Positions 7,088 to 63,880 of a stretch of 64,000 bases of DNA are shown in pieces. The DNA comes from Paramacrobiotus metropolitanus (taxonomy: Eukaryota; Tardigrada; Eutardigrada; Parachela; Macrobiotidae). Position numbers and translations under genes: made by a program. Position 1 is the stretch's first letter, and every line of letters starts with the position of its first letter. The notes beneath the pieces are model-generated. The model did not search any database, had not been told where the DNA came from, and was given only the letters and a program-made list of their open reading frames with translations. Where the stretch lies: the NCBI RefSeq assembly GCF_019649055.1, contig NW_026570271.1, forward strand, positions 744,001 through 808,000, given 5' to 3'.

Positions 7088-10000
7088 ATGCTGTACAACC
7101 GTATAAGGATTATTTTGCTGATGTTCAGTTTTGCATATAGCGCCTACTTCGCAAAAGGTACTGGTATATTTGCAATTGCAGTTACCAATCGACTTGTGTC
7201 GTTAATTACAGCAGATTTGGCGTATTTTTCATAAATATGGATATGTCAGTTTAATGTGGCATAATATTATTTAATTAATACTGAATTTCTACCAGTAGCA
7301 GCTTATACAGTACATTTGCACATTAGCTCAGACACTGTCCCATTTAGAATGGCCCATCAGAATTGGCGAAGAACGAATATTTGGTAACGTTTCCGTTGTT
7401 CAACATCCCGCGTTAATTACCGCGGATGTCGGTAATGGAACCGCACCGATTAATGCATCATGTCCAGAAATTGTTTCGCGTGCCGAGTGGAACGCCAGGG
7501 ATCCGGTGTATAATAACGAAACGGAGAGTAAAGTCTTTCTCAAACTCCCACTGCACAATATGGTGTACACGCAAACCTACACCGGTACCACGGCACACGG
7601 GACTTGTACCGATCGGGAATCCTGCAAGTTAATCGTCAAAGCCATACAGAATGATCATATGGGCTTCGGCACATCCACGGATAAATTCGCCGATATTGGC
7701 TACCAGTAAGTACCACAACAAAGAAAGTGTCGATTACTCAAAATCTCTTCCTGCGGCAAGTTGTACTGGTAGAATCGCTGTTGTCTAACAGAAACAATTG
7801 TTAAACGTCCTTATTGTCTCCATGTCAGGCGATGCCACTGCTAAGTGTTCGCCGTATTAGTATACTGCTTTCGTGTTCGTATTGCAAAGTATTATAATTT
7901 AACTTTAAACAGTTCAGTTAATTACAATTTAACTTTTACAGTTCAAACTTTTTAATGTAAATTGTACGTATTACTACATCATTGTAAACATCATTATTGT
8001 AGCTTCGTAAGCATTAGTATCTTGAAGAATCTTTCTTCCTTTTAGCTTCCTAATTGGAGTAGACGGTTCGATATTCGAGGGCCGAGGATGGCTCGTCAGA
8101 GCCGCCTACTATAAACAGTACAACGACCAGGGATTCGGCGTCGCCTTTCTTGGAACCTTTCCGTTAACTGGTGCGTGATCGCTGCTTTACCCGTCGAATG
8201 CTATTAAATTGTCCGATATCATTACATGTAGATTATGCTTGTAGAGCTAAACCAACTTAACCAATCACTTTTTAAACATTTTCCTGATTACTGTAAATTA
8301 AAACGTGATTCTCTGTTTCATTGGCCTCGTCGAAATTTTTTTGATTTCTAGTTGTGTAAGTACAAAAGTGTTACCTTGTAGGTACCAGCGTCGCACCCTT
8401 AACTTACGAAGCGATCCTATCAGCGCACCAGTTGTTGCGCTGCGCCATTTCCCAGGCATATCTGATCTCACCAAACTACACGCTAGTGTCGTTGCGGTTA
8501 AGCCCAACAGTTGGTCAATACATTGACAACCCAGATAGTTTCCCGCATGATTCACCGTACGAGTCGCACACTCCCTATCCACACTTTCAACTAGCCTTAG
8601 AATTAGACTAATGCAAATATCGTATCCGTCTGCGGTTGTTGTGTTGTACTACCGTTACATATGCCGCTTTACAGGACGGACGCTCCAGCACTTAAGCCAG
8701 CCGAAGTTGCTGCTATATCCATTGGCTGTAGTATCGCTTTGGCTTTTGGTATCGCTCTAGCGATCTCCAGCTGGAGGAAAGCCCGGATTTCCACACTGCT
8801 CCCTGATGAAGTACGTTTTAGTACAGTTAGAAAATCATATGAAAGGGTAGCCAGTTTGTTCACAACTATTCACCATTCCACGCTACTTTATCGGTGCTGC
8901 CTACCTTTTTCCGGGAAAAGTAGCGGAAGCCACTTTTGCAATAATTCCCATAGTCTCCAAGGCCAGAGGATGGGAAAAATAACGATCAGTTAGTTCCTCG
9001 TAGTTGCGCCTGTTTCGTTCTTCCGCGTTTTCTTCTGGCGATCCCGCTACTTTTGATGTACCGGTGATGTATGATATCATATAGCGAATGTGTCGCGAAT
9101 ACTAAGTATGGGGAATGTGGCTCGAATAGTTGAATGTTATTGTTTCGCGTAACGCACGTGGTGCAAATTAGACGCATTGGAAGCTGTGCCTGTGGCAGCC
9201 TGCACCGACCGGTGGGCAAGCTCTGCAGTGTTCCGTGAACCGTGGTGCCACTTACCGTACTGTCTGGGTGTAAACCATGTAGCGCAACGGTAGTTGTACC
9301 CTAAAAATCTTTCAACTTCTTTCCAGGAGCCACTGGTGCCCACTACAGGCGACACTCCAGAATATCAGTCGCTTGATCACGGACCTATACATCCCCGATC
9401 TTTGGGGACTTCGACCGACGGAAGCGTACGTATTTAAAGAAGCGTCGTTAAGTGCCGCTTGCGTGATCCTGGGCAGTGCGTAGTGGACAATTTTACGCTA
9501 AGGATTGTACCACGATTGAATGAGACACTAACAGAACACTAACAGATGCTCTTGCAGGTGGACGCTTATGAAACCCTTGGCAGCGACTGTCTGTACCGAT
9601 ACTCACTAAGCGAAAAGATTGGAGGCGGATCATTTGGTACCGTGTACAAGGCACGGATTACGCACCGTGGAACCTATAGTGGCCAAGAGGAAGCGGCAGT
9701 GAAAGTTCTACACATTCAGAATTTAGATGAAATGGAAAATCCCACCGGACAGTTCGGAAAATTCAAGGACAAATGGAAGATGCTGATCGAATTCAACTGT
9801 GAAAATCTGGTAGCGTACCACAAAATTACCATTAGTCAAACAGAGACCGGATCTTTCGTGGAGATTCTAATGGATTACTGCAATGGTACATTTTTGTAAA
9901 CTTAGATGATAATGTTGTAGTGCAATTTTGTACTATTACAGGTCGCGATATGGAGCAGTTGTTATCCAGAATAAAATCCAGTCATACACTGTTAGATCGA

Positions 10001-10687
10001 GCAACCGCACTGTGTTACGCACTGCAGATTGTTAATGGCGTGGATTACTTACACCAGCGACAACTGATGCACGGCGACTTGAAACCTGGCAACATCTTCG
10101 TCAGGTACCATACAGACCGGCATTATGCGGTAATTATCGGCGATCTGGACTGTCTTGTGCATATGTCGCATAATACCATTAGCGCCACTCATCGGACTAA
10201 TATTCTGGGGACAGCGAAATACATGTCACCCGAGCGCGTGCACTGGGATTGTCATGACGAGCTGCAGATTCCCAGCCGCAAAGCGGATATCTGGAGTGTT
10301 GGTTGTATTATGCATGATTTGTTTGATTATTCCTGCGGAATTTTCATGCGAATGTTTCACAAAGCCGGCTCACGGCCGGAAGAATCCGAGACATTCCTAG
10401 TGGAGAAGAACACGGAAGCCCAGGTCATCATTATGAGGATTATGAACGGGTATGTTCCGTTCGTCAGCAAAATGCTGCCACCGGAATTGTCCAGTGTGAT
10501 CAGTCGCTGCTTGATTGTGGCCAGTAACGAGAGGCCTTCTGCCGCGGAACTGCAGAACAGTCTTCTGGCACTGCTGGGTCATATAACAACTCATCGCGAT
10601 CCAGCTTTTGTCACCCAAAAGGACGTTATACGGCACTGCGTATGTGGAAAGCAGTTATACCAATCCGAATATGGAACTAGTCATTAA
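7088..10687 (+). CDS. RK1: PGRP-ectodomain transmembrane receptor kinase
   Basis: Eight exons: 7088-7157, 7348-7705, 8046-8170, 8382-8556, 8675-8810, 9327-9425, 9558-9885, 9942-10687. All junctions are GT-AG with phases 1-2-1-2-0-0-1, giving 678 residues. A signal peptide (residues 1-22, MLYNRIRIILLMFSF) is followed by a PGRP domain (about 62-243: CPEIVSRAEWNARDP, FLIGVDGSIFEGRGW, LTYEAILSAHQLLRC), one membrane helix (about 254-275, VAAISIGCSIALAFGIALA) with a stop-transfer WRKAR, a 45-residue juxtamembrane part, and a kinase from about 342: glycine loop IGGGSFGTVYKA, lysine AVKV (K370), HGDLKPGN (474-481), GDLD for DFG, YMSPERV, DIWSVGCI. The tail has CVCGKQL. The expected helix-C glutamate aligns to lysine. 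The zinc ligands of PGRP amidases are missing, so it should bind peptidoglycan without cutting it and signal inward. Domain calls are firm; the ligand and pathway are inferred. Confidence 0.9.
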
Positions 10688-12644: not shown

Positions 12645-13371
12645 ATGCTGGCTAATTGCATAAGAATTATTTCATTGACGTTCGCTTTTGCTTATAGCGG
12701 CTACTCTGCAAAAGGTGTTTTATCTCTCGCATACATCTGCCATAGCGATGCCATCCGCCATGTAATGCAGTTCATTATAAATATTTCGGCATTTTTATGA
12801 TCAACCAATTAAGCGTTTTAACGCTATAATTATTTCATTTATCAAGTCTTAATTTTGCTATACGTTAATTATTTATTTAAGAAAGTACTGAAATGCATTG
12901 TCATTATTTTGTCTTTTTTATTAATTTCCTTTATTGTTAGGTTGGCCCAACAAAACTGTCGGTAATGTTTCGGTCATTCCATATGCTACGCTAGCTATGA
13001 CAGGAGCGAATAATGGAACGGTGCCGTCCAACGCATCATGCCCAGCGATTGTTACGCGTGCTGAGTGGAACGCCAGGGATCCGATATATAGCAACGAAAC
13101 GGAAACCAAGGTATACCTGAAATTTCCGCTGCCAAACATGGTGTACACGCAGACGTACACCGGCACCTCGCTGCATGGGACCTGTGCCGATGTTGAATCC
13201 TGCAAGTTTATCGTCAAAACCATACAGAACGATCATATGGGCTTCGCGCCGGCATCCACTAATAAACTCGCCGACATCTCCTACCAGTAAGCATACAGCA
13301 ACGGGAGCATAAATTATTTACCAAACTGTTTTTTGCAAACCGTGTGGCATTAGTAAAGTCGGTGCGGCGAA

Positions 13372-13565
13372 AGCTGAAACTCTAAGTCTGACTCTGAATG
13401 CTTAAAGTTTAAGTCTGAATCCTAAAAGTCTGAGTGCTTAAAGTGTAGTTAAGTTTAAATCTGAATCCTAAAAAGTGTGAATGCTCAACGTACCGTACTT
13501 AAACTCAAAGTCTTAGCGCTCAGGCTCACATTTGCAGTTTAATTAGATTCAGAGTCTTGTCGCTC
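13372..13565. repeat. Degenerate tandem repeat in RK2 intron 2
   Basis: Units built from ctgaatcctaaaag, tgcttaaagt and ctcagagtca recur several times in a 190-base stretch of the intron. It looks like a decayed minisatellite and is absent from the same intron of RK1, RK3 and RK4. Confidence 0.55.
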
Positions 13566-14881
13566 AGAGTCAGAATGAGTGTATCAGAATCCCAGGCCAG
13601 TCGCAGTTGATCTTGATGCTAGCCCGGGGTCTGGTTTCCACGTATGATATTTGGCTTAAACCTGATACTGTGTTTATCGAAATTTATATCATTTTTTTTA
13701 GTTTTCTAATTGGAATAAACGGTTCAATATTCGAGGGCAGAGGATGGTTCGTCGGAGGCGCTTACTACAAACCGTTCAATGACCAGGGGTTTGGCGTCGC
13801 CTTCCTTGGAACCTTTCCACCAGCCGGTACTCTCATTGCTTCAGTTGTACACGTTTCAGCAAATGCTCCAATGTCAAATTTCAGTAATTTAAAATTCTTT
13901 TGGTAATTACAGAGCAGTAAGAACAATTTGAGGTATTGCATTTCAGGTACCAGCGTCGCACCCTTGACTTACGAAGCGATCCTAGCAGCGCATCAGCTGT
14001 TGCGCTGTGCCATTTCCCTGGGACATCTGATCTCGCCAAACTATACGCTACTGTCGTTGCGTATAACCCCAACCGTTGGCCGATATATTGACAATCCGGA
14101 TACGTTCCCGCACGATTCACCGTACGGTGTTTTCCACGGTTTTCTCGTACACTTACTTGTGTACTGCATAATAAATTACTATGCACAGTTTTATAGTGTT
14201 TTCTAATATTAATATCTAAAATATCGTTGATTTGCAGGACCGACGCTCCAGCTCTTAAACCGGAAGAGACAATTATTATATCTTTTGGCTGTAGTGTAGC
14301 GCTGGCATTGGGCATTACCCTGGCGGTATGCGGTTGGAGGAAAGCTCGCATGTTCAGGCTGCAGCCTGACGAGGTGCGACTGAGTTCTTGAAAAATTCAA
14401 AGCTATATAATTTTGATAAGTTCATCACTACGAAGTATCTTTACGCGGGCGGCGTTATGAGTACAGTAAAACCTGTGCACTTTGAACACCAACGGCTCCA
14501 TTAAGAGCGTCCAAACACGTATCTTTCACTCTGCATCGGCTGATTGGTGAAACTTAATTTGCAGGAACCACTGGCACCCGCCCTCGAACGCGCCATGAAC
14601 TATCACTCACTTGACCATGGACCGTTACATCCGCGTACCATGGGGAATTTAACCGGCAATGCCGTACGTAATAAAAGTACAACGATTGATTCTTTTTTTG
14701 CAGCTGTCAACTCATTTTTAATCGAAAGTCTTAAGACGATCAAATGAGGCTGGGTGTGTGTCTAAAAATGTGTGTCTGACAATTGTGAGAATTGCGGTAC
14801 TACCTACGACTAGGCAACTGCTATCAGAGCAACCTGAAAGCTCCCACAGCAAACAAACAAGTGGTGCGCGATTTTAGTGCT

Positions 14882-15047
14882 GTAGCCGCTGGATGAAATG
14901 GCACTTCAAGTTCAGCGTCTGGTGTACGGAAAACGACGCACACGCTACTCGGTATTCTACGTAAAGTGTGCGATGCCGGGCAGGGGACAGGCAGTGGCCG
15001 GATGATGGCCCGGATCTAAAAGCGGTGCCGTTTCATCCAGCGGCTAC
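14882..15047. mobile_element. MITE in RK2 intron 6
   Basis: A 166-base element bounded by a 23-base terminal inverted repeat (14882-14904 against 15025-15047, one mismatch, core gtagccgctggatgaaa). It has no coding capacity. The superfamily is not clear because I cannot fix a target-site duplication. It is not in the same intron of the other RK genes, so it inserted after the duplication. Confidence 0.75.
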
Positions 15048-16174
15048 GGTAAACTCAGTACACTGACGTTAAGAATTCAAATTTAGCAAACAGCTACAGA
15101 TAAATATTAAATGTCTTACAGATAAACGTTTATGAATCACTGGGCAGTGACTGTCTGTACCAGTACTCATTGAGCGAAAAGATTGGCGGCGGATCGTTTG
15201 GTACTGTGTACAAGGCACGCATCACGCACCGTGGAACCTATACTGGCGACGAGGAAGCAGCCGTCAAAGTTCTGCATATCCACAATACGGATGACGTGAA
15301 CATCCCCACCGAAGAATTCAGGAAATTTAGAGACAAATGGAAGATGTTGCTTGACTTCAACTCTGAACATTTGGTAGCGTACCACAAAATTTCGATTAGC
15401 GGAACGGAAACCGGGTCTTTCGTAGAGATTCTAATGGATTACTGCAGTGGTAGGTTGTGGCAGTTTGTATAATTTTCATAGGACAGTCTTGTTACAATTT
15501 GGCTGTGTAACAGGTCGCGATTTGGAGCAGCTGCTATCCAGAATAAAAATCAATCATACGCTCATCGAACCGAGGAACCGTGCTGCGATGCGGACTGCAG
15601 ATTGTTACGGGTGTGGAATTCTTACACGAACGACAACTGATGCACGGCGATGCCGCATAACACCATTAGCGCCACCCATCGGACCAATATTTTGGGAACC
15701 GCGAAATACATGTCACCAGAACGCGTGCACTGGGATTGTCATGGCGAGCTGCAGGTTCCCAGCCGGAAAGCCGATATTTGGAGTGTCGGTTGTTTCATGC
15801 ACGATCTATTCGATCACTCATGTGGAATTTATACGCGAATGTTTCATAAAGCCGGCTCGAGGCGCGAAGAACCGGAGACATTTGTCGTAGAGAAGAATAC
15901 TGAAACCCAGGTCATCATCATGAGGATTATGAACGGCTATATTCCGTTCGTCAGTCAAACGCTGCCACCGGAATTATGTAGTGTGATCAGTCGGTGTCTG
16001 GTTGTCGCCAGTAACGAAAGGCCTTCGGCTTCCGAGTTAAGGGAAAGTCTACTGATGCTGTTGGGACACATAATGACGCACCTAGATCCAGCGTTCATTA
16101 GTCAGAAGGAAGTTATGCGTCCTTGTGTATGCGGCAGACAGTTATCGGAAAACGGTTTTGATCTTAATTCTTAA

Positions 16175-19402: not shown

Positions 19403-22400
19403 CTAAGAGGACTGTTGGATCCTCTGCAATGGATGATGAGTCGCTGACTTAGTGACAGGTGCAACTTCGGTCGCAGTGTTCGCTCTGCGTCCTTGGACAT
19501 TTGGCGCATCGCAGGTCGGTTCATTGACAGAGTATTCAGTTTGCGTGTAATAATTAATCCACTCTGGGCCGAGTGGAAACTGGTCCGCGTGACAGTTGAC
19601 TGGGTGATAAAGTTCCTCTTTGCCAAATTCAGCGCTTTCCAGCCTGCCGCTACTCTCACGTCCGTCAAACGAATACACTTCACCGACCTGAGCGCGGAGA
19701 CGCAAATTTGTATTGGTTCGCCACCAGGCACGATACCAAGCAAATTCGCAGCTGCAGTGGAGAGCACGCATGAAGTTTCGGAAAGATTGGTCGAAATTAT
19801 AGTATCGTTGTTCGTCTAGCAGCGCTTCCAGTGACACAATTCGAAGATCGGGCAAGCTAGCTAATGAGTCCAGCTGCATAGTTTCAATTGTACTGTTGTA
19901 AAATAAAATTATCCGCAGCCGCTTGGAAGCCAAAAAATCTCGTTTCTCAATGATCAAATTGCGACAGCCGTAGAGCTGAAAATCCAATAGGCTGGTAAAG
20001 TTCAAGTCACTTAACCTCCAAGTCACGCGTTCTGTGTTGCAGTTACGCAGTTGCAGCTTGACGACTTGGATTTGTAAGGGTGCAAAAGTGTATCTTGCAA
20101 TAAGTTGCTCTTCTACGTCAATGGAAACTAACCGCAATGGTTTCTCCGCCATATCCACCGCCATCCGCTGCAGGACGGAAACCGGTGCGTTTGACCGGCA
20201 GACAATTCGGAAATCGGTTCGGGTGGTGCAGTTGTGCACTGTGGTGATGTCGGATTGACAGTGGCGATTGAATTGCGCACCGCATTCTTCGTCCGTCATT
20301 TGTTCGAATGAGAACAACGGAAAATCCTCATCGTGAGCGTAAAGTTGCTTACTGTCGCGGATGATGTTCAGTGGGCACTTATAGGCAATCATAATTTTAG
20401 CCACGTCTGTCGGGCTCAGGCTTTTCATCCGTCCCATATGTACCGTTAGCGCTTTTTTGGATATCATGCCAGGACTTCGACCTGTGGTGCCAGCGAAGGT
20501 AGAATACTCTCGGATGGAATGGTAGTCGTACTTCGCTCCGAAAGTGTACATGGACGGATTTATGCTGTACAAATCGTCGTAGAAGTCCTTATACTCGCTT
20601 TCCGACTCGCTGATATTGCGCACTTCGACATACTGGTCCCGATCAAAGCGTTTGTGTTCGTAATCAAAGCCCAGTGCATGCATAACATGGAACTGGATGA
20701 CGCCCAAATCGAAGCATGATGGCTGACTCAGGTAAATTTCTTGATAGCCGCCGATTCGTCCAAGGTCTGAATAGCATCTAAAATGAGCGCTCGTTTGCCA
20801 TTCTTATGCCGGTACACTGTATTTCTTATAACTACCGTAGTTCCAGCAACAATTTTCAGAATATAAAAATATGATAGCATCGAATGGAGGCGGTTGTTTG
20901 TTAACATAATTATATTACTATTGGTCCCACTAGCACGCAGCCAGTTGTGTTTTGGATATGGAAGAATGAAGGAGAAAACAATTTACAAATGAGATTTTAG
21001 GCATATTTCAGAAATTTAAGACTGGGAAGGGGAGATTAATTACGGAAAAAGTTTGAATATGCAGAAATGCAAAGAAATGTAGAAAAGCATGATATTAGTA
21101 TCTGTTACTAAGTTAGGTAAGAAGAACCGTATAATATTAAGTTAACTATTAACATACGTATTAAGGTAAGAACGTCAAAGAAAAGCGTAACATTACTGTA
21201 ATATTTTATGTGCTGAAAGCTGCCAAGTTGTGAAGTTTTTATTTAAAAGGGCTCTAGAATTTTCTACCCGTAGAAGTTTTTAAAGACGCTTCGCAATGGA
21301 AGTACTGGCAGCCGCACTTCGCAAACTACTGGAAGTTTTGAAACTTTTGAAAACTTTACAGAAGAGAAAAGATTTTGTTTTTAAAATCACAGCTTAGGAA
21401 GGAACCTGGGATGCTGGATTTTTTAAATATGCCAGCGGTTTGAAAATATAACTAATGATTTGCGTAATAGAAAATAAATTCCAAAAAAAGACCTAAGAGC
21501 AAGTGCACGTATATGAATCTATAGATAGATGCCGTTACTGACATACGATTGGATTGTTTCTGCATGAGCATAGCTGCTTGAGGAAAAGTAAAGATAATCA
21601 AGTTCGTCCGTTCTGGGTTCGAACAAAATGCATCTTTTGGTCGCTTTTTCCATTGTGCGAAGAGCTTTCAGAACAATTTGCCGCTTTGTTTGATCTGTAC
21701 AAGTAAATTAAGTCGTTGAAATCGATCTGGCAGAAATTTATGACACCTTACATAAGTCACATTAATACAGATGTACAAGTGCAGTACATTATTACAGAAA
21801 TTCTCGTACCAAGTATCTATTCGAGTGAAACTGTGTTTGCCAAAAGAATAACTGAACCGCACAGGTAAACCGACCAGAAGTTAAAGCCCCGTTTAGCGGG
21901 TTGTCTGTTCTTGATGTAATAATAATAACAATAACAATAGAGAACTGCTGTCTTTAATTTATGCCATATCACTTGCTTATTTTGTGTGGAAACCGTCATA
22001 GGCACGCCCCCATCCCGTCTTGTTTCCATGTTTATTTCAGGCACCCTTTGCCGCATCCGGTTTATTATGGGCACTCATTTCAATGAAATGAAATACGCGT
22101 GAGCGCAGCATTACTTCGGTATTTCGGTACTGTCATCATTTTGATATTTTATTACTGATAATTTGCCATAATAATTTTAATAGGTGCTAGCTGGGATCGT
22201 AAAAGCTATTCCATCTAAATCATTAGTAAGACCACCAGCCGGCACCAGGTGTAGCGCAAGTTTATAAAAGCGATGACAAAGACTTGGTGAGAAAAAGCTA
22301 GTAAAACACCTTCACTTTATCAGAAAAGAAAGGGCAACGCAAGTCCGATACTCACAATCAGTTCAACTTCGAGACAAGTTAGGTATATCATCACGCATTT

Positions 22401-25552: not shown

Positions 25553-27227
25553 TTACCCGTTGCTGGTTGCAGTTTTGATTGTAGAGAATGTTTTGATTCC
25601 ATGCTCGTTTGTCCCATCGCATTTTGGCTCGTTAACTGAGTATTCGGTTTGCGTGTGGTAATTTATCCATGATGTACTGAAAGGGAATGGATCACTATTA
25701 CAGTTAATTGGATGGTAAAGTTCGCCTTCCGCAACTTCTGGGCTCAAGACAACTCTGCTACCGGGATGTCCCTCGAACAAGTACACATCGCCAGCTTCAG
25801 CGCTGAATCGCAGATTTTTATTGGCACGCCACCAAGCACGGTACCAACCAAACTCACAGGCGCAGTGTAGTCTGCGCAGGAAGTTGCGGAACGATTGATC
25901 AAAATTATAATACCACTGATCTCCCAGCAGCGTTTCCAGCGATAATATCTGCAGGTCTGGCAAGTCAGCAAGCGATCCTAACTGCATGGCTTTTATAGTG
26001 GTGTTGAAGAAGAAAATTTCTCGCAGTCGTTTGGATGCCGAAAAATCCTGCTTTTCGATGGCTAGATTGCGGCAGTCGTAAATCTGAAAGTCCAACAGAC
26101 TGGTAAAATTTAGATCCTTCAGCTTTGAGGTCATCCGCTCTGTGGTGCAGTTACGGATTTGCAGTTGTACTACTTGGATTCGTACAGGCACAAATGGGTA
26201 TTTGGCAATAAGTTCTTCTCCGGCATATATGGACACCGGTCTCAGTGGTTTCTCCGCCATATCCAACGCCATCCTCCGTAGAACGGAAACAACGGAACGG
26301 AACGGGTGCCACTGATTGGCACACAATTCGGAAATCAGTTCGCATGGTGCAGTTGTCGAGTGCGGTAACGTCGGACTGGCAATAGTGGTTGAACTGTGCG
26401 CCGCACTCTTCTTCGGTCATATTTTCTCGTGAGAATAATGGAAAATCGTCATCAATCACGTGGGGCTGTTTACTGCCCCGTGTGACGTTCAGTGGGCATT
26501 GGTAAGCAATCATAATTTTAGCCACGTCTGCCGGACTTAGCTTTCTCCATCCTCCTAAACGTGCCGATAGTAGCTTTTTGGGTATCATGGCAGGAGTTCC
26601 ATCTATAGAGCCGGAAAATGTATATAAATGTTGGATGGAGTAGTAGTCGTACTTTGTTCCGAACGTGTCCATGGACGGATTAATCTCATAGCAGTAACTG
26701 TAGGTTTCGCTTTCGATGCTGACTTGGCGTATTTCAACATACTGATCCCGATCGGGACGTTTTTGCTCGTAATCGAAGCCCAAGGTTCGCATTACTGCAA
26801 ACTGGATGACAATTGGATCGGATGGGACTTTCAGGTAAATACCTCGGGAACCGCCGGTTCGTCCAACGTCCGAATAGAGGCCTCAAAGATACAAAGGCAT
26901 TTCACGTATTGTACCGAGCGAACTGCTCTCTAGTACGTATAGGCTATAAGCGTAGCTTAATACACTTAATACATTACAACATCAAACTTTACCATCTAAG
27001 GACTTTCTAGTGTTCAGTTGTTAAGATCGCTGCCTCAGTCTTGTCACACACAACGTCTCCGAATTCCTTAATAATTTAATAATAAACCAAGACATTTTCG
27101 CAGAAGATATGCACAATCTATAGATATCAATACGATGTGCTCTGTATACTTTATGCGATAACTAATGCGTCCAATGGACTTTTTGAGCGGTAGCACGACA
27201 ACTATATGACCTTCATTTTGATGACCG

Positions 27228-31137: not shown

Positions 31138-31144
31138 TATAAAA
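31138..31144 (+). promoter_or_regulatory. TATA box ahead of the first Polinton plus-strand gene
   Basis: gagTATAAAAccg lies about 85 bases before the ATG at 31225, in a short region between two divergent genes. The motif and placement are typical of a core promoter. Confidence 0.45.
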
Positions 31145-31810: not shown

Positions 31811-31838
31811 AGCCTTCTTGCTGACACCGTTGCAAGTA

Positions 31839-41800: not shown

Positions 41801-42275
41801 TGGTGACAAGGTTAAAATGCTCATTGTCCAGCAACAGAAAGATTTCCTGCATATCATGGGTTTTACGCTCTGGTACCCGTGCAATTATCATATCACCCTG
41901 GTTGGCTGAAATGACTTTGGTTTGGTACTCTGGGAAGGCTTACTTCTGCAACACTTCCAGGTCATCAAGGTCACAGTAACGGCCAGGGGGTAGAAGACAC
42001 TCTTCCATTATCTTCACAGCTTGGTCTTCCAGATTGGCTGTGCGGTCAGAGCGTATATAGTTGTTCCATTTATTTTTATGCTGCGGCACTTGTAAATCAT
42101 GCGTCAGGCGAAATTTTCCCAGAAACAGAGCGGCGGGTAAGCATAGGTTATTGTTTACACGAATTAGTACAAAACCAATGGTTTTTCGGCTGTAACGACG
42201 TCTGTCTGGTTTTAATACTGTAAAACACTCTGGTAATGTGTAATGTTGTAATACTTGGGCATTGCAAAATGTTTT
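38847..42275 (-). pseudogene. Protein-primed DNA polymerase B, one nonsense codon, 5' end lost
   Basis: The long open part (41891-38847, 1014 codons) has an N-terminal zinc cluster (CNDCDRPYHHKERHRC), exonuclease motifs FFDYETY, HNFRGYDGHF and CSNDVTVL, and polymerase motifs DVVGLYPF (A), NSLWGKTAQ (B) and YYDTDSVIF (C). All metal-binding acids are present. Upstream in the same frame, 42270-41943 encodes the usual N-terminal part (NNNLCLPAALFLGKF, LLPPGRYCDLDDLEVLQK), but a TAA at 41942-41940 separates the two. The 5' end merges into host-like DNA at about 42275. Either translation begins at the internal ATG or the gene is dead. Confidence 0.9.
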
Positions 42276-42359
42276 TTCAGCGATCTTGCATTACATGTTT
42301 GATACAGTACGTTGGAAACGTAGTAAACAAGCACAGACACCAAGGTACCCCGTATAATT

Positions 42360-44219: not shown

Positions 44220-47200
44220 ATGCCGCAGACCTATGGAAATGGAATTATGTGTGGGGCTTTTGGGATTGCATTTGCCGGCTATTTTGCGATATGTAGTTTC
44301 GCGCTTATAACTCCTGCAGGTAATCCGCTATTGCTGGAAACGGGGGGGGGGTGTTTAGAAGGCCATTTAACTTCTGCTAATAGATAAATAAGTATATTTA
44401 GGATATACCGGTATCTTCTTCAGCTTATTAATACAAAATCTCACTCTCAAAATCAGAACATACGAATTTTGTTTGCTCGTTATTCAACAGTCCCAACATT
44501 TCAACCACTCGTGTTTAGTTTTACTGCATCTAAGAACATTACAACTTAATTGTTGTTTAAGAGTGGCAAAATGTCACCGAAGCTAACGAACCACAAAGGA
44601 ATGTTACCTTCGCCACCGCCGATAATTTTATCGCTGCTAATACGCAGCACGATGAACCGGCATCCGCTGATGTCAGAAACCTCCAGCAAGGCGCACTGAC
44701 TTCCGGGGATTCGGGCAACGGAACATTGCCCACCAATGCATCGTGCCCACCTATGGTATCCCGTGCCGAATGGAACGCCCGTGATCCGATCTATAATAAC
44801 CAAACCGAGGTCAAAATATTTTTACAATTCCCGTTGCGTTACATGGTGTACACACAAACTGTAACTGGCACCACGGTGCACGGAACGTGCACCGATCGAG
44901 AATCCTGCAAAAAGACCGTCAGGGCCATACAGGACGATCATATGGGCTTCACGCCGGCATCCACTACGAAATTTGCCGATATCGGCTATCAGTAAGTGCC
45001 AGCCCGCATTATTAATCTGTTACGGATCACCCGTTACCTTTTCGAGTTGACTGATTGACCGGTTATTGCGACCGTGTTAAAATGGCCGAAAGAAACTTCT
45101 AGTTAAGTTAGTGTGCAGATATCTGTACATAGTTAGTCCCGCCAAAAATTCAATAACCGCATGCGATATATAGTTATACGAGTACCAGAAAATAACTCAA
45201 TCAAAGAACCGTAGGTTTGAATATTGTGACATTGTAGCTTTCTAATTGCAATGGACGGATCGGTTTTTGAAGGCAGGGGATGGCTGGTTAAAGGCTCTTA
45301 TTACAAACCGTTAAACACGCAAGGATTTGGGGTCGCCTTTATTGGGACATTTCCTGAGGCTGGTACGCGCGCTTGCTCACAGAAATAAGTGTTTTTCTGA
45401 TATTGTACTTTACTGCTCCATCTGTGATAAAAGGGAAATACTCTGTAGGTATGTTTGTCTGTTTGTTCATTTTGTCTATACTTTGCTTATACGCGTGTGT
45501 AACATCCTCGTGCAAATGTGACCGAAGTGACGAATTTTTTTGTAAAATGCAGTTATTCAAAAGAAGAGACATTTTTTTTCAAAAACGTAACCAACAATCA
45601 AATTATGGCAGTATTTATTTACAGGAACAAGTGTCGCACCTCTGACTTATGAAGCTGTTCTCTCAGCACACCGGCTGCTACGGTGTGCCCTTTCCGAAGA
45701 TTACCTCGTCTCGGTAAACTACTCGGTGATGGCATTGCATTTAAGCCCGATAGTCAGTCAATACATTGACAATCCCGACACGTTCCCGCGCGATTCTCCG
45801 TAAGACTAATTTTGTCATACGTAGTTATACTGATTGCGTTAAGCAAAGCGAGGTCTGGCAAATTTAAGCTAATTTGCTCCCTTAATGATTGCACCGTTAA
45901 CGTTTTCAGCTGCATAGCGCACACACCATTATTCAGCGGTACTGAAAATGCGCGATGGAGAAGCTGTAGTTAGTTAATAACCATCAATTAGTACGCAATC
46001 CCTGTATGTCGATTCGCATTGCAGGTTACTAACACCAGCCATGATTGTTGTGGTATCCATTGGCTGTACTGTCGCTTTAGTTTTTATTATCGTTTTCGGC
46101 ATCTCGAGTTGGAGAAAGTCGCGGGCATCGATTGAACAGGTACGGGTAGGAAGAATTTAATGACCTTTAGAATTTGCAAAAGGGGTGACCTTAAAAAGGC
46201 ACCGATTAATTCCGGAATTCAGACCCTAAAATTTAAGCCGATACCTCCGTGCGTTTAAACATTAAAAACTTCGCTTCACCCACAATTCCTCCACTGGAAG
46301 TTGATGTTCTAAGCGCAAAAGGTTTTCACGCCAGTGTATAGTTGGCTCCAGAGTGCCATTCAAGAACTTGTTCGGGAGTGCGCGAAAGCGAAAGTTTTGG
46401 TGTATGTACGCCAATTTTATACCACGTACCGGTTCATTTCCTTTAAGTCACGCTCCGGTCTACCAATGCACGCGAACGTGCAGTTTTCTAGTATAAGAAG
46501 TATTTTAGCAGCTGTCCACAGTTGACTGAATAACCCTCTGAATAACTACGGCATTTCTTCCTTTTCCATTTTGTGGTGGCAATAAAAATTTGAACAAGAT
46601 CAGATGATACTAAAGCTTTTGGTAGCCGTTAACCATGCGTTATCATCCTCCACGAGAATTTGCATAAAAAAGCACATCAGCATGTTGAGTGTTTATTCAA
46701 CGAGAACGGGGCTGTATCGAAGTCACTTTTTTGCGTCCCTTTTCTAGATTTAAAAAAGAACAAAATAATTCTCAGATTTTTAGAATTCATTTTACAACTT
46801 TACATACTTCGCAAAAACTTAACTGCACAGACAAGAACCGTTGCAACTTGCAACGTGCGAGGTATTGCACATACAACGGATTTGAAAAAAACTGGTAAAG
46901 CATATGCATGCTTGTATGGATTCAACTGTACGTTACAGTTAAGCCATTTTAATGTTGTTAAATATGTAATATATAACACAATTATAATAACATAATATTG
47001 AACAATATAACAATTAAATACGAGGGCTACTCGGAAAGTAATGATAATCAGTATCAGTTAGTAATCATAAAATTATGCACTAATTTTTTAAAAACTGTAG
47101 CATTCATAACTAGATCATAGGGCAATGGCCGTGGCCATACCGCCTAAGGTTGGCGGTTTGCAAGACTCTGAACATGGCTGGGTAGCGCTGATTTTTCACT

Positions 47201-49559
47201 GATCACTGAAAACGTTGCCTTAATTACTGGCCAGTTTTCATGATATTATTTTGAAAAATTGATTTGCAGAGAGAAGTGTAGAATTTTTCATGCTGCATTG
47301 CCTGTTCTGTTGCCTTAATAAGGACCATTCTTTGCTGATGTTGCCAGCTGGTTCCAGCGAACTCGCACCGAAATCCGTTTTGACAACGGTGCTCAAATTT
47401 TGGAATGTTTTTTGCGTTTTCACTTTCGAAAAGTCCTCATAGTCGAAACCCTGATCGGGAAGTATTCATTTCCGACCCCGAAGCAATAGCAGAGGGTCTA
47501 AGCATTATGGAAGGAAAGGTGTCGAGGGTGTGCTGCAGCTTCTTACTGATAAAGCAGAAGAAAATGGTTTTTGACACGGTATCACCCGTGTGGTGCAATA
47601 TCGCGAAAATCCACAGATAAGCACTCCGTCATTGCTTTATTTTTTTTCTCGGCCTGGAGTAAAAGTATCGTTCCACATTATTTTTCTTAGGTTACCTTAG
47701 TCCTTTATCTGTTCGAAATATTTCCTGGCTTGAAAAAATTGTTGCGTGGCAAAAAGTTTGAAAATGATGAAGAACTGGAAGAAAATATCAGTACACCGAT
47801 CTCTAAGATACCGCCTAATTTCTTTTCGAAAGCGTTTGATGAGTGGCTGTTTAGCTGTTTACGTTGTATAGAGATTAAGGGACATTGTTTTGAGAAAATA
47901 CGAGGAAAGCGCTGATGCAATAAAAAATCGTGCGATAGTTATCATTACTTTCCGAGTGACCCTCGTAACAAAATTGGATGGTTAAGCTGTATTATGGTTT
48001 CTGGTTTATAAAGCCTACACGTAAAGTTCACCTGCGATAAAACACAGTGATAGCTTTTTTTGTTTTTAGGAACCGCTGATGCCAGAAGCCCAGCTTTATA
48101 CGAACTACCAGTCGGCAAATCAAGGAGCGTTTCTTCCGCAAGTGCGTGACTTAAGTCCCGGAAAAAATATGCTGACATTGCACCGCTTAAATATGGTTTT
48201 GAATTATTTCCGTTCATAAGCATTGTCCATTACGTATTTAGCAAAAGGCACAAACTACATACATTTGTGGTTGAAACTTCGAAGCTGGTTCGAACGCGGA
48301 GCTTTTCCCTTTTTGAAATTACAGCAGGGATCGCATTTTTGTACTGCACACACTTTGGGTTGCAGAATTTAGAAAGGCCAAATGAGATAATCAGCAGAAC
48401 GTCTGTTTTTACAGGCTGACGCTTATAAAATATTGGGCAGCGACTGTCGATACCAGTATTTACCGAACGAGGTTATAGGAAGCGGATCGGCAGGGACGGT
48501 GTACAAGGCACGGATCACAGATCGTGGGACATATACCGGCGACGGGGAATTGGCAGTCAAAGTTATACACATGAAAAACACGGATGAACGGGAAACAGAA
48601 GCCGAACAACTTAGAAAATTCAGTGACAAATGGAAGAAATTGATTAGCCTGAACTGTACGCATCTGGTGGCATGCCATAAAATTTCCATTTATCAAACGG
48701 AAACCGGATTTTCTGTGGAGATCCTGATGGATTATTGCAATGGTAAATGTGTCAGGTGCATAAATTACTTAAAACAAAGTCTTTTCGCAATTTTGTTGTA
48801 TAATAACAATTAACAGGTCGTGATTTGGAGCAGCTGCTATCCAGAATCAAAACCGATCGTGCGCTGTTGGATCGAGGAACCGCCTTGTGTTACGCACTGC
48901 AGATTGTCAATGGGGTGGAATTCTTACATGAACGACAGCTGATGCACGGCGACTTAAAACCTGGCAATGTTTTTGTCAAGTACAGTAAGCTTCGGCATTT
49001 TACTCTAGTCCTTGGCGATTTGGATTGCCTTGTGCACATGCCGCATAATACTATTACCGCCACCCAAGGGACCAATATTTTGGGTACCGCAAAATACATG
49101 TCACCTGAGCGCGTGCGCCGAAACTGTCATGGAGAGCTTCAGGTTCCTAGCAAGAAAGCTGACATATGGAGTGTCGGATGTATTATGCTGGATTTATTTG
49201 ATTACTCCTCTGGAATTTATACGCGAAAATTTCAAAAAGCCGGCTCTCCGCCTGAAGAGCCCGATACAATTCTTGTAGAGAATATGGAAGCCCAAGTCCT
49301 CATTATGAGAATCATGAACGGTTATGTTCCGTTCGTTAGCGACAGGTTGGACCCGCGGTTATCTAACATCATCAGCCAGTGTTTAATTGTGGACAGCACC
49401 AAGAGGCCTTCCGCGGGGGAAATACACTGCAACCTCGTTTCGTTGTTGGTCCACATAGCAACACATCAAGATAGAACTTTTATCAGCCAGATGGAGGTTA
49501 CACGGCAGTGCGTTTGCGGAAGCCACTTGGCAGAAAATAGCTTTAATATTAACTCTTAA
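44220..49559 (+). CDS. RK3: PGRP-ectodomain transmembrane receptor kinase
   Basis: Eight exons: 44220-44319, 44562-44991, 45238-45362, 45625-45799, 46025-46139, 48070-48141, 48415-48742, 48817-49559. Phases are the same as in RK1 and the frame is open throughout, 695 residues. Signal peptide MPQTYGNGIMCGAFGIAFA; a glycosylation-rich spacer longer than in RK1; PGRP with CPPMVSRAEWNARDP, FLIAMDGSVFEGRGW, LTYEAVLSAHRLLRC; membrane helix MIVVVSIGCTVALVFIIVFG; kinase with GSGSAGTVYKA, AVKV, HGDLKPGN, GDLD and MSPERV; tail CVCGSHL. The TVTG that replaces the amidase HHT lacks both His. Intron 5 (46140-48069) is long and holds a mariner relic. Confidence 0.9.
47021..47965. mobile_element. mariner-family relic in RK3 intron 5
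   Basis: Inverted ends cgagggctactcggaaagta and tactttccgagtgaccctcg (reverse complement-like), each next to TA, the mariner target. Near the right end the plus frame LLRGKKFENDEELEEN through FDEWLFSCLRCIEIKG resembles the C-terminus of mariner transposases (the conserved WxxCIxxxG stretch). The catalytic part is not recognisable and the element is about 350 bases shorter than a full mariner, so it is dead. Confidence 0.75.
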
Positions 49560-50738: not shown

Positions 50739-52540
50739 TCAGCTCACCGGAAGTAAGAACGGTTGATACACCAGCATTTGCAGCTCATGGCGAATCGGAT
50801 AATCCGTAAAATAATGATCCAGCTTAGGTCGAACTGGATGTGTTGCTTTAGTGTACTTTGGACATATAGCAAGTTGGTTCATTAAGTGAGTATTGGTGTA
50901 GTAATTGATCCATTCCGCACCGAAAGGAAACGGTTTGGCGGTACAGTTAATCGGAAGATAAAGATCCTCTTTGCCATATCCAGCGCTTTGGAAATGTTCC
51001 TCAGAGTATCGCATATCGAACGAATACAGTTCGCCAACTTGTGCGCAGAGTCGCAGGTTTTTATTGGATCGCCACCACGTGCGGTACCAAGCAAACTCGC
51101 AACTGCAATGGAGATTGCGGAGGAAGTTGCGGAAAGGCGGATCAAAATTGGAGTAGTTTTGCTCCTCCCGCAGCAACCGACCTGCATTGATTTTATTGTG
51201 GTATTGTAAAATATAACAACCCGCAGCCGCTTCGTGGTAGTAAAATCCTGCTTCTCAATAATCAAGCTGCGACAGTCGTGCAGCTGGAAATCCAGAAGAT
51301 TAGTAAAATTCAAGGCGTTCAACCTCGAAGTCGCGCGCTCGGTGGTACAGTTGCGTAGTTGTAGTCTCACGACTTGGGTTTGTATGGGCGCAAATTGGTA
51401 CTTTGCGATAAGTTCTTCTTCGACGTCCATGGAAAGCGGTCGCAACGGTTCTCCAGCCATAGCCTCCGCCATCCACTGCAGCACGGTAACAATTGCTATG
51501 GACTGGCAGCCAACCCGGAAATCGGTTTGTTCGGTGCAGTTATGGATTGTAGCGACGTCAGATTTGCAGTAGCGATTAAACTGTGCCCCACACTCGTCAT
51601 CCGTCACTAGTTCGAGGGAGAACATCGGGAAATCGTTATCGTCCGAGTACGGTTGTTTACTGCCGCGGGGGACATTCAGTGGACACTTGTAGGCAATCAG
51701 AATTTTAGCCAAGTCTGTCGCACTTGGGTTTCCATTCGTCCCAGGCGCATTGTCACAGCGTTTTTGGATATCATCACAGGACTGCGATCTAGTGATCCCC
51801 CAAACACAAAATGATGTTGGATGGAAGAGTAGTCGTACTTTGTTCCGAATGTGTACATTGCCGGATTGATTGAATAGAATTCTCTGTAGATTTGGCTGTC
51901 GACGCTGGCATTACGCACTTCAACATACTGGTCCCGGTCGGGACGTTTTTGTTCGTAATCAAAGCCCAATGCATGCATAACCACGGCCTGAATGATTCCT
52001 GGCTTTAAGCATTCTGATGGGTCACCCAGGTAAATCCGTTGATAGTTACCAGTTTGCCCAAGGTCTGAATGGCAACTAAACGAAAAAACCCCGTGTTCAG
52101 GTTACTATTACTGTATAAATGTACTGTAGTTACTTCTGCCGGTATAAACTATACAGACAGAATTTTTTAAACAGTGAACACACTTGGCTGAATAGCCCTC
52201 TGAACTGTATGTCGAGCGAGTAATTCTTTCAAGCTTTTAAAACAGAAAACACTTAAGTAAGACAGAAAACGATCTAATAGTAAGTCTACAGATGCTTAAA
52301 TGTATGTATTTATGACTTTATTAAACGTATGTATTTGTGACTTTTCTGACTTGCTCCAAGATTACAGACGGACTGTAGCGGTAGCTGCTTAGCGAAAAGT
52401 AAAGAGAGTAAAGTTCGTCCGTTCTGGGTTTGAACAAAATGCAGCCTCTGGTGGTTTTTTCCATTGTGCGAAGACCTTTGAAAATCGCTTGCCGCTGTGA
52501 TGGACCTGTTCAGCAGTGCAAGTAAAGCAAATCACTAAAA
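50739..52540 (-). pseudogene. Astacin-LRR family copy D, three frameshifts
   Basis: Helix exon at about 52530-52385 (GLRTMEKTTRGCILFKPR), then a main exon from 52075: CHSDLGQTGNYQRIYLGD and QAVVMHALGFDYEQKRPDRD, with the astacin zinc His and Glu replaced by Ala and Val. The frame breaks near 51735 (one base lost before DLAKILIAY), near 51180 (about 60 bases lost between KSMQVG and LREEQNYSNFD) and near 50885 (within YYTNT). The LRR cap HCSCEFAWYRTWWR is visible. Non-functional. Confidence 0.8.
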
Positions 52541-60181: not shown

Positions 60182-63100
60182 ATGTTGAATTACCACGGAG
60201 ATACTACCTATTTTTCCATAGTGACCTTTACCCTATTGGCCAGCTGTTATACAGCCTGCTCTCTCCGCATGCCGTTGCCATCTGGTTAGTGTGACACTGG
60301 AATTCTTTCATTGACAATAACCAAATTGTTCGCTGTGTTTGTGTTTGTTTTTGTGCTTGTGTTTCATTCAATGTTTGAGCACACTCAATATGTTTGTACA
60401 TATTTGGCGAAACGCTATCCAGTTTTCTCAGGGTAATTCCTTATTAATGTGATCATGTTAATAATGGAAAGTCTCTTGTATCCCAAACTCAGTATTCAAT
60501 CGCAAAAAAATTACAACCGTCCGTCCAAATTTTACAGACCATCAGATCTCGAAAAACTGCGCTGAAAATTATGGAGATAAGCCTGTAATCGCGTCAAAAA
60601 TGCGGTCACCGATGACACTCTACGAGCTTATGGTCAGTCCATTGGCTATTACTAATAGAGCACACCGGTCGGTTTCACTTGATATGGATGCGACGCGTTC
60701 AGCAGCTAATGTTTCCGCAACATCTGCTGACGTATGTCCCGAGATAGTAGAGCGTTCTGAATGGAACGCCAGAGAACCCATCTATGGACCTGAAACGGAA
60801 GAGCCAGCGAAGCTGCAACTACCACTGAAGAACATGGTGTATACACAGACATATTCGGGATGGCCGTGTATGACCCGTGAAGACTGCAAGATCACCGTCA
60901 AAGTCATACAAGACGACCATATGGGATTTGGAGCAACTAATAATAAATTCTCCGACATCGGCTATCAGTAAGCAACTGCACTTGCCTCGACACATTCGAC
61001 ATCTGCTCTTCTTACAAATGATTTACTTTACTAATTTTGGTTGCTGAACACAGTTAGGGCAGTTTAATCTATCCTAGAAGCTCTTAAACATTATTTCATA
61101 AAAAGACGCCGTAGTACAGTATTACGGCTCACTGAAATTTCGTCCACTAACAATTCGTCGCCCGACATGATCTCGACAGAAAAGATAAGAAAACATATGA
61201 AACATAGAAAACTAAGACTGTTTAGCTAAACACTAGCTCGAAGTCGTGACGATTCGACATCGCGTCTTTTCGACCAAGTGCCGGTCGACGAATCGTGGTC
61301 GAGTTTACTACATCGGTGTACAGCACTTTACCACCACAAACGCATTTCAATACAACGGAATGCTTAACTGACCAGCCAAAACTAAGCACTCAAAAAGTTT
61401 ATCATTCTTTTATTTTCTTAAGACTTTTTTCCATTTTATTACAGCTTTTTGATTGGCATGGACGGGTCAGTGTTTGAAGGCCGTGGATGGTTTGTTAAAG
61501 CCGCCTACAATCGACCGTACAATTCACAAGGTTTCGGCGTGGCTTTTATTGGCACTTTCCCGGCCACCGGTACAGCATTCATTCGATGCTAACTTAAGAA
61601 ATAGTATTGTTTGTGTCTATGGTATGATTTTTAGGAAACCATACAGGGCCTTTAACATACGCCGCCTTGGTATCCGGAAACCGATTATTACGCTGTGCTC
61701 TTTTCAAGGGATTTCTAGTGGCCACCGGCTACACTGTGGTCGCGTCGAGAATAAGTACGGTGGTTGGGAATTACGTTCGAAACCCCAAAAGCTTCCCACA
61801 AATGCAGTCGTAAGTGGTGTTACTTACTGAGTTCGTCAATAACATGGCGATCTGATTCTCTTCTCGTTTACTTTTGCATATAACGCACTGAACAGCTGCT
61901 CCTACTATAGCTCACCCACTTCAACGATGCAAACAAACGATGCAGTAACCACAACGTCCGCACTATCTTTACCGATAAAAGAACCGGTATATTCGGTACT
62001 GACGAAGGAAGCGATAATCGCCATTTCCGTTGGATGTAGTGCTCTGTTGGTGATTTCGATCGTTGTGGCAATATTATATTGCCGACGACGAGTTAAAAGA
62101 TCACAAAAGCCCGTAGTGGGATTAGGAATGCAACAGGATGGACAGGTACGAAGTTACTCTTTTTCCAGGGTCTATTTTGAAAATTCTAATACGTAACCAT
62201 AAAATTCCTTCATACGAGACACTGCTGACAGTCAACTTTTTACGTAGGCACTAACAGCCACTAGTTCCGAGAATCAGGTCAATGTGACTGAGTGGTTTGG
62301 AAGCGATTGTGCATACAGATATGAAGCCAACGATTACATCGCCAAAGGAGCGTTTGGACGAGTGTACATTGCGACCGTAACAAAACTCCGCCCCTTTAAT
62401 GGTGATGCCACCATGGCAGTCAAAGTTACACATTTCGACGTCCAAGAACAAATGGAAGTCAATTCTGAACACTGGATCAAGTTACTGACAAGGTGGAGGA
62501 TGCTGACTACTTTGACCTACGATCACCTCGTAACGTATCATAAGGTGTCCATTATTCGACCACGAGGCGGCCTCTCAGTGGAGTTTCTGATGGACTACTG
62601 CCGCGGTATGATTTTTATGAAAGTCGAATTATCTAGAAAATCAGATTTTATCCATGTTTATTCTCCAATGAATTAGATCTCTAATTAAGTAATTGGGATA
62701 TATTCAAGTCGTTCCCAGGAGGCTCTATGTTGGTTACCATATAATTACGAGGTGAAAACTTGCAGTTCATTTTCTTATATCGGTGTTGAAAGAGGTTTTA
62801 AGTGCACTTACAGAGTACTAGTTACTACTCAAAATGTAAAAAATCTCAGTAAAACCATGGAGCATTAAAACAATATTTAGAATACCTTAAAGCCGAAGTA
62901 ACGTACCGCTAACTGGACGCGTAAAAAAGCCCGATCACCTTGAATATACACATCGAAATTTCGATCACTGGCCCTGGTTCAAAGTTTTTTTAACGGATTT
63001 TGTTTTAGTCTGTGATTAGCTCCTGTAGTTGACATAACTGTGCGGCAAGTACACAAAAACAGAACTAAATATGCAACAACCGTTAATATAAAACGTTTAA

Positions 63101-63880
63101 TCTGATACTCCAAGTGGTTGGTCTTGGAGGTAGAGTATTGAACTGTTTTTTTTATTAGGAGGTGATTTGGCTTCGGAACTCCACAAAATTAAAAAGAGCA
63201 ATGTCTGCTTAGACTGGACCCGGGCGCTCTGCTACGCGCTGCAAATCGCCGATGGCTTGGAATTTCTCCACCGGCATAAGCTGATTCACGGAGACCTGAA
63301 ACCGGGCAATGTTCTGTTAAAAGGTCACAACGGCCGCCACGACACACTACTAATTGGCGATCTGGACAGTCTCGTGCAGATGCATCACAACACGACAAGT
63401 GCCACCGATATGTCCCATCTTCACGGAACAGTTCGCTACATGTCACCGGAAATGCTGAAACGTTTTGGTGAACTAGACACACCAGCGCCGGGACGGGCGA
63501 CGGACATCTGGAGCGTGGGCTGCATTATCCACGATCTGTTCGACTGCTCGGCTGGCATCCTTGTGAGAGTCTTGCGTAAAATTGATTGCAACGATTTCGT
63601 CGTACAGGATGCCACGATCCCCGCGACATTTGCTATGAAAATCATGGAGGGCTACAGTCCTGTCGTCGACGAAAATATTCGAACAGAATTCGCTGACGTC
63701 ATTAAAAACTGCTTGGTTTTGGATAGCAAGGGCAGACCTTCGGCTGACTGCCTCAAGTGTACGCTTCTCGACGTGATCGCTGGGCTGGCAGCTGCGAGCG
63801 ATACTGACACCGTCGCTGAGATGGACACTGTTCGCCAGTGCGTTTGTGGCAGGCATTTGCCAGTAGAAGTTCCGATGTAG
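60182..63880 (+). CDS. RK4: divergent PGRP-ectodomain transmembrane receptor kinase
   Basis: Seven exons: 60182-60284, 60538-60967, 61445-61569, 61635-61809, 61911-62145, 62248-62605, 63159-63880. Phases are consistent, 715 residues. The start at 60182 gives a signal peptide (YFSIVTFTLLASCYTACS); an in-frame ATG at 60080 would add 34 residues in front of it. PGRP: CPEIVERSEWNAREP, FLIGMDGSVFEGRGW, LTYAALVSGNRLLRC. A longer Ser/Thr stalk precedes the helix AIIAISVGCSALLVISIVVA and its CRRRVKR stop-transfer. Kinase: KGAFGRVYIA, AVKV, HGDLKPGN, GDLD, YMSPEML, DIWSVGCI; tail CVCGRHL. The intron that separates two juxtamembrane exons in RK1-RK3 is absent. The most diverged member, intact. Confidence 0.9.
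62606..63158. other. RK4 intron 6
   Basis: A 553-base intron within the kinase domain at the position and phase (G|GT or G|GA) used in all four RK genes. I see nothing else in it. Confidence 0.8.

Follow-up and report, generated by a model that had tools for sequence, protein, structure and literature searches.

The window, as we call the whole 64,000-nt stretch of Paramacrobiotus metropolitanus DNA analysed here (NW_026570271.1, positions 744,001–808,000, forward strand; assembly of 169.8 Mb), carries four plus-strand genes, g1 to g4, in which a peptidoglycan-recognition protein (PGRP) domain, one membrane helix and a protein kinase are read in a single spliced frame. Every exon was modelled with GT/AG boundaries, and in the common plan a hydrophobic first exon precedes the PGRP domain (three exons), the membrane helix and the juxtamembrane segment (one exon each) and the kinase (two exons). 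The introns have phases 1,2,1,2,0,0,1 in g1, g2 and g3 and 1,2,1,2,0,1 in g4, which has one intron fewer, its juxtamembrane and first kinase exons being fused. The frames of g1, g3 and g4 are intact; the frame is lost in the last kinase exon of g2, which also lacks a run of ∼86 bases found in g1, reaching from the catalytic loop as far as the DLD motif. Exon models, Pfam and RefSeq agree on this design, and bear out a preliminary description of the same DNA, which had proposed four such genes, three of them intact. The parts are located as follows.

7088..10687, plus strand: g1, PGRP receptor Ser/Thr kinase, 8 exons, 678 amino acids, intact (exon model, Pfam, RefSeq LOC129592265)
7088..7157, plus strand: g1 first exon, hydrophobic, probable signal peptide (exon model, hydropathy; alike in g2)
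7348..8556, plus strand: g1 PGRP domain, exons 7348-7705, 8046-8170 and 8382-8556 (exon model, Pfam, PDB PGRP matches)
8675..8810, plus strand: g1 membrane-helix exon (exon model, hydropathy)
9327..9425, plus strand: g1 juxtamembrane exon (exon model; alike in g2)
9558..10687, plus strand: g1 kinase exons 9558-9885 and 9942-10687 (exon model, Pfam)
12645..16174, plus strand: g2, gene structure as g1, last kinase exon 15514-16174 broken
44220..49559, plus strand: g3, PGRP receptor kinase, 8 exons, 695 amino acids, intact (RefSeq LOC129592250)
44562..45799, plus strand: g3 PGRP exons 44562-44991, 45238-45362 and 45625-45799 (exon model, Pfam)
46025..46139, plus strand: g3 membrane-helix exon (exon model, hydropathy)
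48070..49559, plus strand: g3 juxtamembrane exon 48070-48141 and kinase exons 48415-48742 and 48817-49559 (exon model, Pfam; kinase structure prediction)
60182..63880, plus strand: g4, PGRP receptor kinase, 7 exons, 735 amino acids, intact (RefSeq LOC129592298, some splice choices differ)
60493..61809, plus strand: g4 PGRP exons 60493-60967, 61445-61569 and 61635-61809 (exon model, Pfam)
61896..62145, plus strand: g4 membrane-helix exon (exon model, hydropathy)
62248..63880, plus strand: g4 fused juxtamembrane/kinase exon 62248-62605 and last kinase exon 63159-63880 (exon model, Pfam)

All of these window proteins are named uncharacterized in RefSeq. LOC129592250 equals g3 across all 695 amino acids, LOC129592265 is a fusion of g1 and g2 (1204 amino acids) whose first part is g1 up to the C-terminal fusion point, and isoform X2 of LOC129592298 corresponds to g4 and is spliced differently at its 5′ end and where the membrane exon begins. 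Mapped back to the DNA, the RefSeq proteins of g3 and g1/g2 fell on the modelled exons, and that of g4 was not placed at its start. All four models contain a single clear membrane helix (19-residue hydropathy 2.3–3.0) and an N-terminal hydrophobic stretch (11-residue mean 1.9–2.3). The latter is the putative signal peptide of the preliminary description; judged by hydropathy only, it was found in all four models, and RefSeq isoform X2 of g4 lacks it. DNA similarity between the copies is essentially confined to exons, including the membrane and juxtamembrane exons of g1 and g2, and some alignments run on into a short kinase intron and a few bases beside the exons.

The spliced products of the three intact genes all exceeded the Pfam cut-offs for Amidase_2 (26 bits) and Pkinase (31.7 bits), with 37.1, 31.7 and 31.3 bits for the former and 121.8, 109.8 and 102.9 bits for the latter. 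No Amidase_2 match was obtained in the three single PGRP exons scanned, and a six-frame genome scan with this profile gave one sole match, the C25 gene (C25:1012601-1013235). Pfam searches of single exons miss this PGRP domain. Compared with PDB, the ectodomain matched 28 sequences up to an E value of 1e-3 (best 2.5e-23), of which 26 were PGRPs, including PGRP-LC, LE and LF chains, and two were T7 lysozyme. For the kinase part, NEK7, PLK2, NEK2, PKR and ULK stood on top among the best 60 of 1482 PDB matches (E 1e-3), and no Pelle or IRAK chain was among these 60. Since these are the best matches, the kinase sequence is Ser/Thr-like with no named class assignable. Across 16 chosen relatives the glycine-loop Gly, Lys388, HGD 492–494, Lys496, Asn499, DLD 516–518 and SPE 544–546 are invariant. 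By the usual roles of these motifs, the catalytic Lys, Asp, Asn and Asp are present, as expected of a Ser/Thr kinase by sequence. A fold search with an AlphaFold model returned kinases in its best 50 rows, with TNIK, NEK2 and MST3 on top.

Further copies were found elsewhere in the genome, where a search with a PGRP exon of g3 gave seven matches. On contig C58 a fifth gene, g5, has three PGRP exons, a membrane exon and a kinase in order across ∼24 kb; its first and juxtamembrane exons were not located. Contig C388 holds the same parts within ∼4.3 kb at 92–96% DNA identity in long segments, with frame changes at two places, one within the membrane exon and one close to the end of the contig, and is probably the other haplotype of the C58 gene. 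We then assembled 25 PGRP loci by hand from 63 PGRP matches and compared them with the listed kinase matches, the lists being limited to 150 scored candidates. A tyrosine kinase lies downstream on the same strand at 13 loci (five on C89, four on C63, three on C118 and one on C6), a Ser/Thr kinase lies downstream at six (four on C51, one of them broken, and one each on C58 and C388, likely one gene), and the remaining six (four on the minus strand of C63, one on C6, and C25) have no kinase downstream in the listed matches. Within 7 kb, 18 of the 25 loci have a downstream kinase exon on the same strand, and within 25 kb 19 do, against an expectation within 7 kb of 0.16 by chance when the 313 listed kinase matches are used, or 0.57 with all 1107 first-look candidates. 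The PGRP loci are often tandem copies and so are not independent, and both kinase queries came from next to PGRP exons; with this caveat, 18 observed against 0.16–0.57 expected leads us to reject chance adjacency.

The loci with a tyrosine kinase form a second set:

C89:291674-321483, same strand: PGRP-tyrosine-kinase loci (co-location)
C63:752827-802034, same strand: PGRP-tyrosine-kinase loci (co-location)
C118:275281-319343, same strand: PGRP-tyrosine-kinase loci (co-location)
C6:2736595-2739047, same strand: PGRP-tyrosine-kinase locus (co-location)
C89:291674-294515: copy A, PGRP-tyrosine kinase, nine exons modelled through apart from the signal exon

On C89 a membrane helix and a tyrosine kinase come after the PGRP exons. 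The open frame of copy A spans 639 amino acids, which comprise a PGRP domain, a Thr-rich stalk, a membrane helix and a tyrosine kinase (Amidase_2 36.6 bits, PK_Tyr 245.2 bits), and its PGRP domain matches human PGRP-I-alpha at 1.2e-30. Its kinase has the HRDLAARN signature and, among the best 60 of 212 PDB matches, an EGFR-named entry comes first, followed by VEGFR2, VEGFR1, PDGFRA and FGFR4, the matches to VEGFR2, PDGFRA and FGFR4 being at ∼1e-49 or better. By kinase match and signature, copy A thus resembles the receptor tyrosine kinases of the VEGFR/PDGFR/FGFR class, to which the g1–g4 kinases do not belong; the ectodomain of that class consists of immunoglobulin domains, whereas copy A has a PGRP domain and a Thr-rich stalk. 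All parts were also seen as exons in copy B on C89 and in a C63 copy (L047, last exon cut off). In copy C the middle PGRP exon was not detected by the PGRP searches, and the remaining loci of this set are defined by co-location and partial loci. The five PGRP loci other than C25 with no kinase detected stand head to head with tyrosine-kinase receptors on C63 and C6:

L058 258-940, minus strand: head-to-head PGRP gene
L047 140-563, minus strand: head-to-head PGRP gene
L048 62-513, minus strand: head-to-head PGRP gene
L046 3-372, minus strand: head-to-head PGRP gene
L050 2890-3288, plus strand: head-to-head PGRP gene

The PGRP gene at L058 continues into the apparent start of a membrane exon, and no minus-strand tyrosine kinase was among the matches listed for C63. 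PGRP-LF is a decoy, and by analogy these membrane PGRPs with no detected kinase could be co-receptors or decoys of their neighbours.

Selection was estimated as the ratio of nonsynonymous to synonymous divergence (dN/dS) by NG86 in five gene pairs, in which the kinase part was the first kinase exon only for pairs with g2. The ratio was 0.25, 0.16, 0.21, 0.18 and 0.24 for the PGRP exons and 0.19, 0.23, 0.26, 0.26 and 0.21 for the kinase exons, so both are under purifying selection. For the membrane and juxtamembrane exons taken together it was 0.23, 0.41, 0.22 and 0.37 in four pairs, synonymous divergence (dS) being saturated in g3/g4. On the juxtamembrane and first exons individually, selection is weak or not shown. 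These data bear on whether annotation has joined two adjacent genes, one with the PGRP exons and one with the kinase exons. The fusion of g1 and g2 into one RefSeq model of 1204 amino acids indicates that joining errors may occur here, and the juxtamembrane exon is loosely conserved. However, the exon order and phases are repeated in four window genes, the order PGRP, membrane, kinase recurs on C58/C388, the membrane and juxtamembrane exons jointly show dN/dS of 0.22–0.41, and the design appears again in the tyrosine-kinase set. The recurring structure and the selection, grounds that lie in the sequence, lead us to reject the artefact, which we regard as very improbable. Moreover, the synonymous divergence between copies is high, with dS of at least 0.59 in the PGRP exons, and thus the copies are not recent. 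A young and mostly non-functional burst of exon shuffling in a region rich in mobile elements would be consistent with the broken g2, the frame changes on C388 and the Polinton-like element between g2 and g3, but high dS combined with low dN/dS shows that the family is not young and has been maintained, and we give this explanation almost no credence.

The kinases of g1–g4 belong to a large family in P. metropolitanus, for which we scored 150 exon matches out of 556 candidates in the genome. Database annotation gives members of this family Kelch, tandem kinase, HSP70, ankyrin, tetraspanin, ubiquitin and cullin partners, some of which may be neighbouring genes that have been joined. A protein search with the kinase at E 1e-10 returned 84 proteins, of which 66 were from P. 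metropolitanus, ten from Hypsibius exemplaris, one from Ramazzottius and seven from others; Amidase_2 was found in one of the 84, P0003 itself. The kinase-Kelch, tandem, HSP70 and ankyrin proteins share their kinase family with g1–g4. No segment exceeded the membrane threshold in 72 of the 86 proteins scanned, whereas members of the receptor clade carry both a membrane helix and an ectodomain. The two kinases most identical to that of g4 are LOC129580712 (58%) and LOC129596342 (51%):

C1:2580000-2599700: LOC129580712, trypsin-homologue receptor, trypsin domain of 69 bits, one membrane helix
C88:332000-341900: LOC129596342, leucine-rich repeat (LRR) receptor, LRRs of 40.9 bits, one membrane helix

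In the trypsin domain of LOC129580712 a Gln occupies what we take to be the position of the usual catalytic His. Two kinase trees were built, a quick one of 81 segments (those shorter than 250 amino acids dropped) and a careful one of 21 chosen rows. In the careful tree g4 groups with the trypsin-homologue receptor (96/92) and then with the LRR receptor (96/91), a grouping that is also present in the quick tree, and g1, g3 and g5 stand apart (100/100). A single origin of the PGRP-kinase arrangement by the kinase tree, with g1, g3, g4 and g5 together, was rejected by the approximately unbiased test at a p of 0.009, a value that is optimistic because the grouping had been suggested by the quick tree seen beforehand. 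In the PGRP tree of 13 rows, by comparison, the five Ser/Thr-type PGRPs form one clade (100/98) with g4 outermost; g3 is placed with g1 in the kinase tree and with g5 in the PGRP tree. Whichever of the three ectodomain types a receptor carries, its membrane exon ends in phase 0 and a phase 1 intron splits its kinase, and the fused juxtamembrane/kinase exon is common to g4 and the trypsin-homologue receptor, the LRR receptor having the two apart as in g1–g3. Because trypsin-homologue and LRR receptors stand on the same membrane-kinase chassis, ectodomains have been swapped. Both trees fit a PGRP-kinase ancestor followed by two duplicated lines, and the simplest reading of the sequences is that the PGRP-kinase was ancestral in the receptor clade and that the trypsin-homologue and LRR ectodomains replaced PGRP in the line of g4.

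The PGRP domains of the receptors have lost the residues of the amidase. The alignment behind the PGRP tree comprised ten receptor-type PGRPs, the C25 PGRP and two outside PGRPs, and the receptor-type rows group apart from the other three (98/97). The motifs HH, GHR and CPG hold the amidase zinc ligands His, His and Cys, and C25 retains all three, whereas the first His of HH and the CPG segment are missing in all ten receptor-type PGRPs and the His of GHR in nine, C6 having a His there. The receptor PGRPs should bind peptidoglycan without cutting it, to judge from these residues. The type of peptidoglycan has been linked to three residues, of which some mixtures bind both types, according to PMC5725095 and PMC4655397. 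In the receptors these residues are mixed, with a KF or NF pair and the Arg of EGRGW; a Lys-type call from the pair was dropped in view of that Arg and of the reported binding of both types by such mixtures, and hence no peptidoglycan type is predicted. Would the ectodomain still recognize bacteria at all? The receptor kinases may be real while PGRP has been repurposed for a ligand of the animal itself, for algal food or for some other cue, or their role may be developmental and not immune; lost amidase residues and a divergent PGRP C-terminus would suit such a change, and the trypsin-homologue and LRR ectodomains of the two sister receptors need not bind bacteria. Nevertheless EGRGW is kept in all ten receptor PGRPs, an xF or xW pair precedes DIGY in eight, and purifying selection acts on the PGRP exons, so that we consider repurposing unlikely, though more plausible than an annotation artefact. 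The preliminary description had noted neither the tyrosine-kinase loci nor the receptors with LRR and trypsin-homologue ectodomains, nor that amidase residues are lost.

Insect PGRP-LC and PGRP-LF resemble g1–g4 in being single-pass proteins with an extracellular, non-amidase PGRP domain. They differ in what follows the membrane helix, since insect transmembrane PGRPs have a short adaptor-binding tail or no signalling tail, with a RHIM-like motif in the cytoplasmic part of receptors of the PGRP-LC/Imd type, whereas g1–g4 continue into a full protein kinase. The genes parallel the plant LysM receptor kinases (LYK/CERK1), which combine a glycan-binding ectodomain with a single helix and a Ser/Thr kinase. 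The ectodomain of g1–g4 is however PGRP, with no LysM match by Pfam in the spliced receptor products, and the nearest kinases are those of NEK7, PLK2, NEK2 and PKR (best 60 of 1482). To our knowledge, animal peptidoglycan receptors described so far signal through adaptors. Searches of the open-licence literature aimed at PGRPs with kinases or at tardigrade PGRPs gave no PGRP fused to a kinase among the papers listed, nor did those with other aims. Among ∼5.8 billion database proteins, the combination was returned only from P. metropolitanus RefSeq models, which are unnamed; the search is leaky, as the kinase query did not return two of the window's own proteins, and other species are weakly covered, so absence elsewhere is weak evidence. 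The interpretation in the preliminary description is supported as to the architecture, and the sensing of bacterial walls is an inference. PGRP and kinase are each of a known kind, and as far as we have seen their coupling in one receptor is new for animals.

Other elements occupy the DNA between and around the receptor genes. The element at ∼30848-42290, between g2 and g3, which we take to be Polinton-like, encodes a type B DNA polymerase and an integrase with a chromodomain over cut-off, and a packaging-ATPase-like match below cut-off. Beside or inside it, the plus-strand frame 31650-32426 matches TATA-binding protein twice (72.3 bits). Three minus-strand frames interleaved with the receptor genes match astacin proteases (19403-20803, 26151-26882 and 51697-52101), and similar-looking frames adjoining them had no Pfam match. 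A minus-strand frame at 3127-4134 has a long Thr-rich repeat and likewise no Pfam match. PMC11191345 gives a BUSCO completeness of 72.9% for the assembly, near that of other tardigrades, and describes one single-base misassembly; the terms kinase, immun and PGRP do not occur in that paper.

We propose that g1–g4 are tardigrade single-pass receptor kinases with a peptidoglycan-binding PGRP domain, which signal directly by their kinase without Imd-type adaptors, and we consider this quite probable. Each would be made from one message and displayed at the cell surface, where the outer PGRP domain would bind peptidoglycan with no cleavage. Receptors would cluster on peptidoglycan fragments or cells, which would bring the inner Ser/Thr kinases together; active kinases could then phosphorylate each other and start a cytoplasmic cascade directly. 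JNK or Tir-1/p38 would be the likeliest downstream route of such an immune receptor, both being reported as kept in a survey of tardigrades. Several results weigh against this proposal. The kinase has HGD and DLD where HRD and DFG are usual. Of the structure prediction that the preliminary description had suggested (mean predicted local distance difference test score, pLDDT, of 60.5), the kinase was obtained with most blocks at 80–95, together with a helix at the membrane segment, but the PGRP part had no confident fold and no usable confidence, with most blocks at a pLDDT of ∼30 and PGRP in 3 of 16 rows. The juxtamembrane exon alone is looser, with dN/dS of 0.40–0.84 across 16–33 codons, the ratio of the first exon is 0.26–0.96, and the six-row receptor clade (87/97) was not starred in the tree. 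Sources also disagree on the missing Imd route. Our genome scans turned up four Death matches and a single match each for RHD and TIR, an exon-wise count and thus weak evidence, and PMC5531438 reports five copies per species, in two tardigrades, of a family annotated as relish-like; these may be NFAT genes.

The survey mentioned above, PMC7056985, provides the immune context. It reports PGRP homologues in eutardigrades except Richtersius, and in the tardigrades examined no Relish, few Imd genes, no intracellular Toll parts, and NFAT present with NF-kB absent; JNK and Tir-1 cascades are conserved, and the term ‘kinase domain’ does not occur in that paper. The receptors described here may bear on the puzzle that eutardigrades keep PGRPs though Relish and most Imd parts are lacking in that survey (PMC5531438 disagrees on relish). 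In a wider proposal, which we hold to be evenly balanced between right and wrong, the Imd/NF-kB route is gone and peptidoglycan recognition was coupled to Ser/Thr and to tyrosine kinases, once each, on a chassis with exchanged ectodomains. If this is true, animals would have in these receptors an equivalent of the immunity that plants base on receptor kinases, and sensing of bacterial walls in animals would have a second, plant-like solution, present in two kinase classes of one genome.

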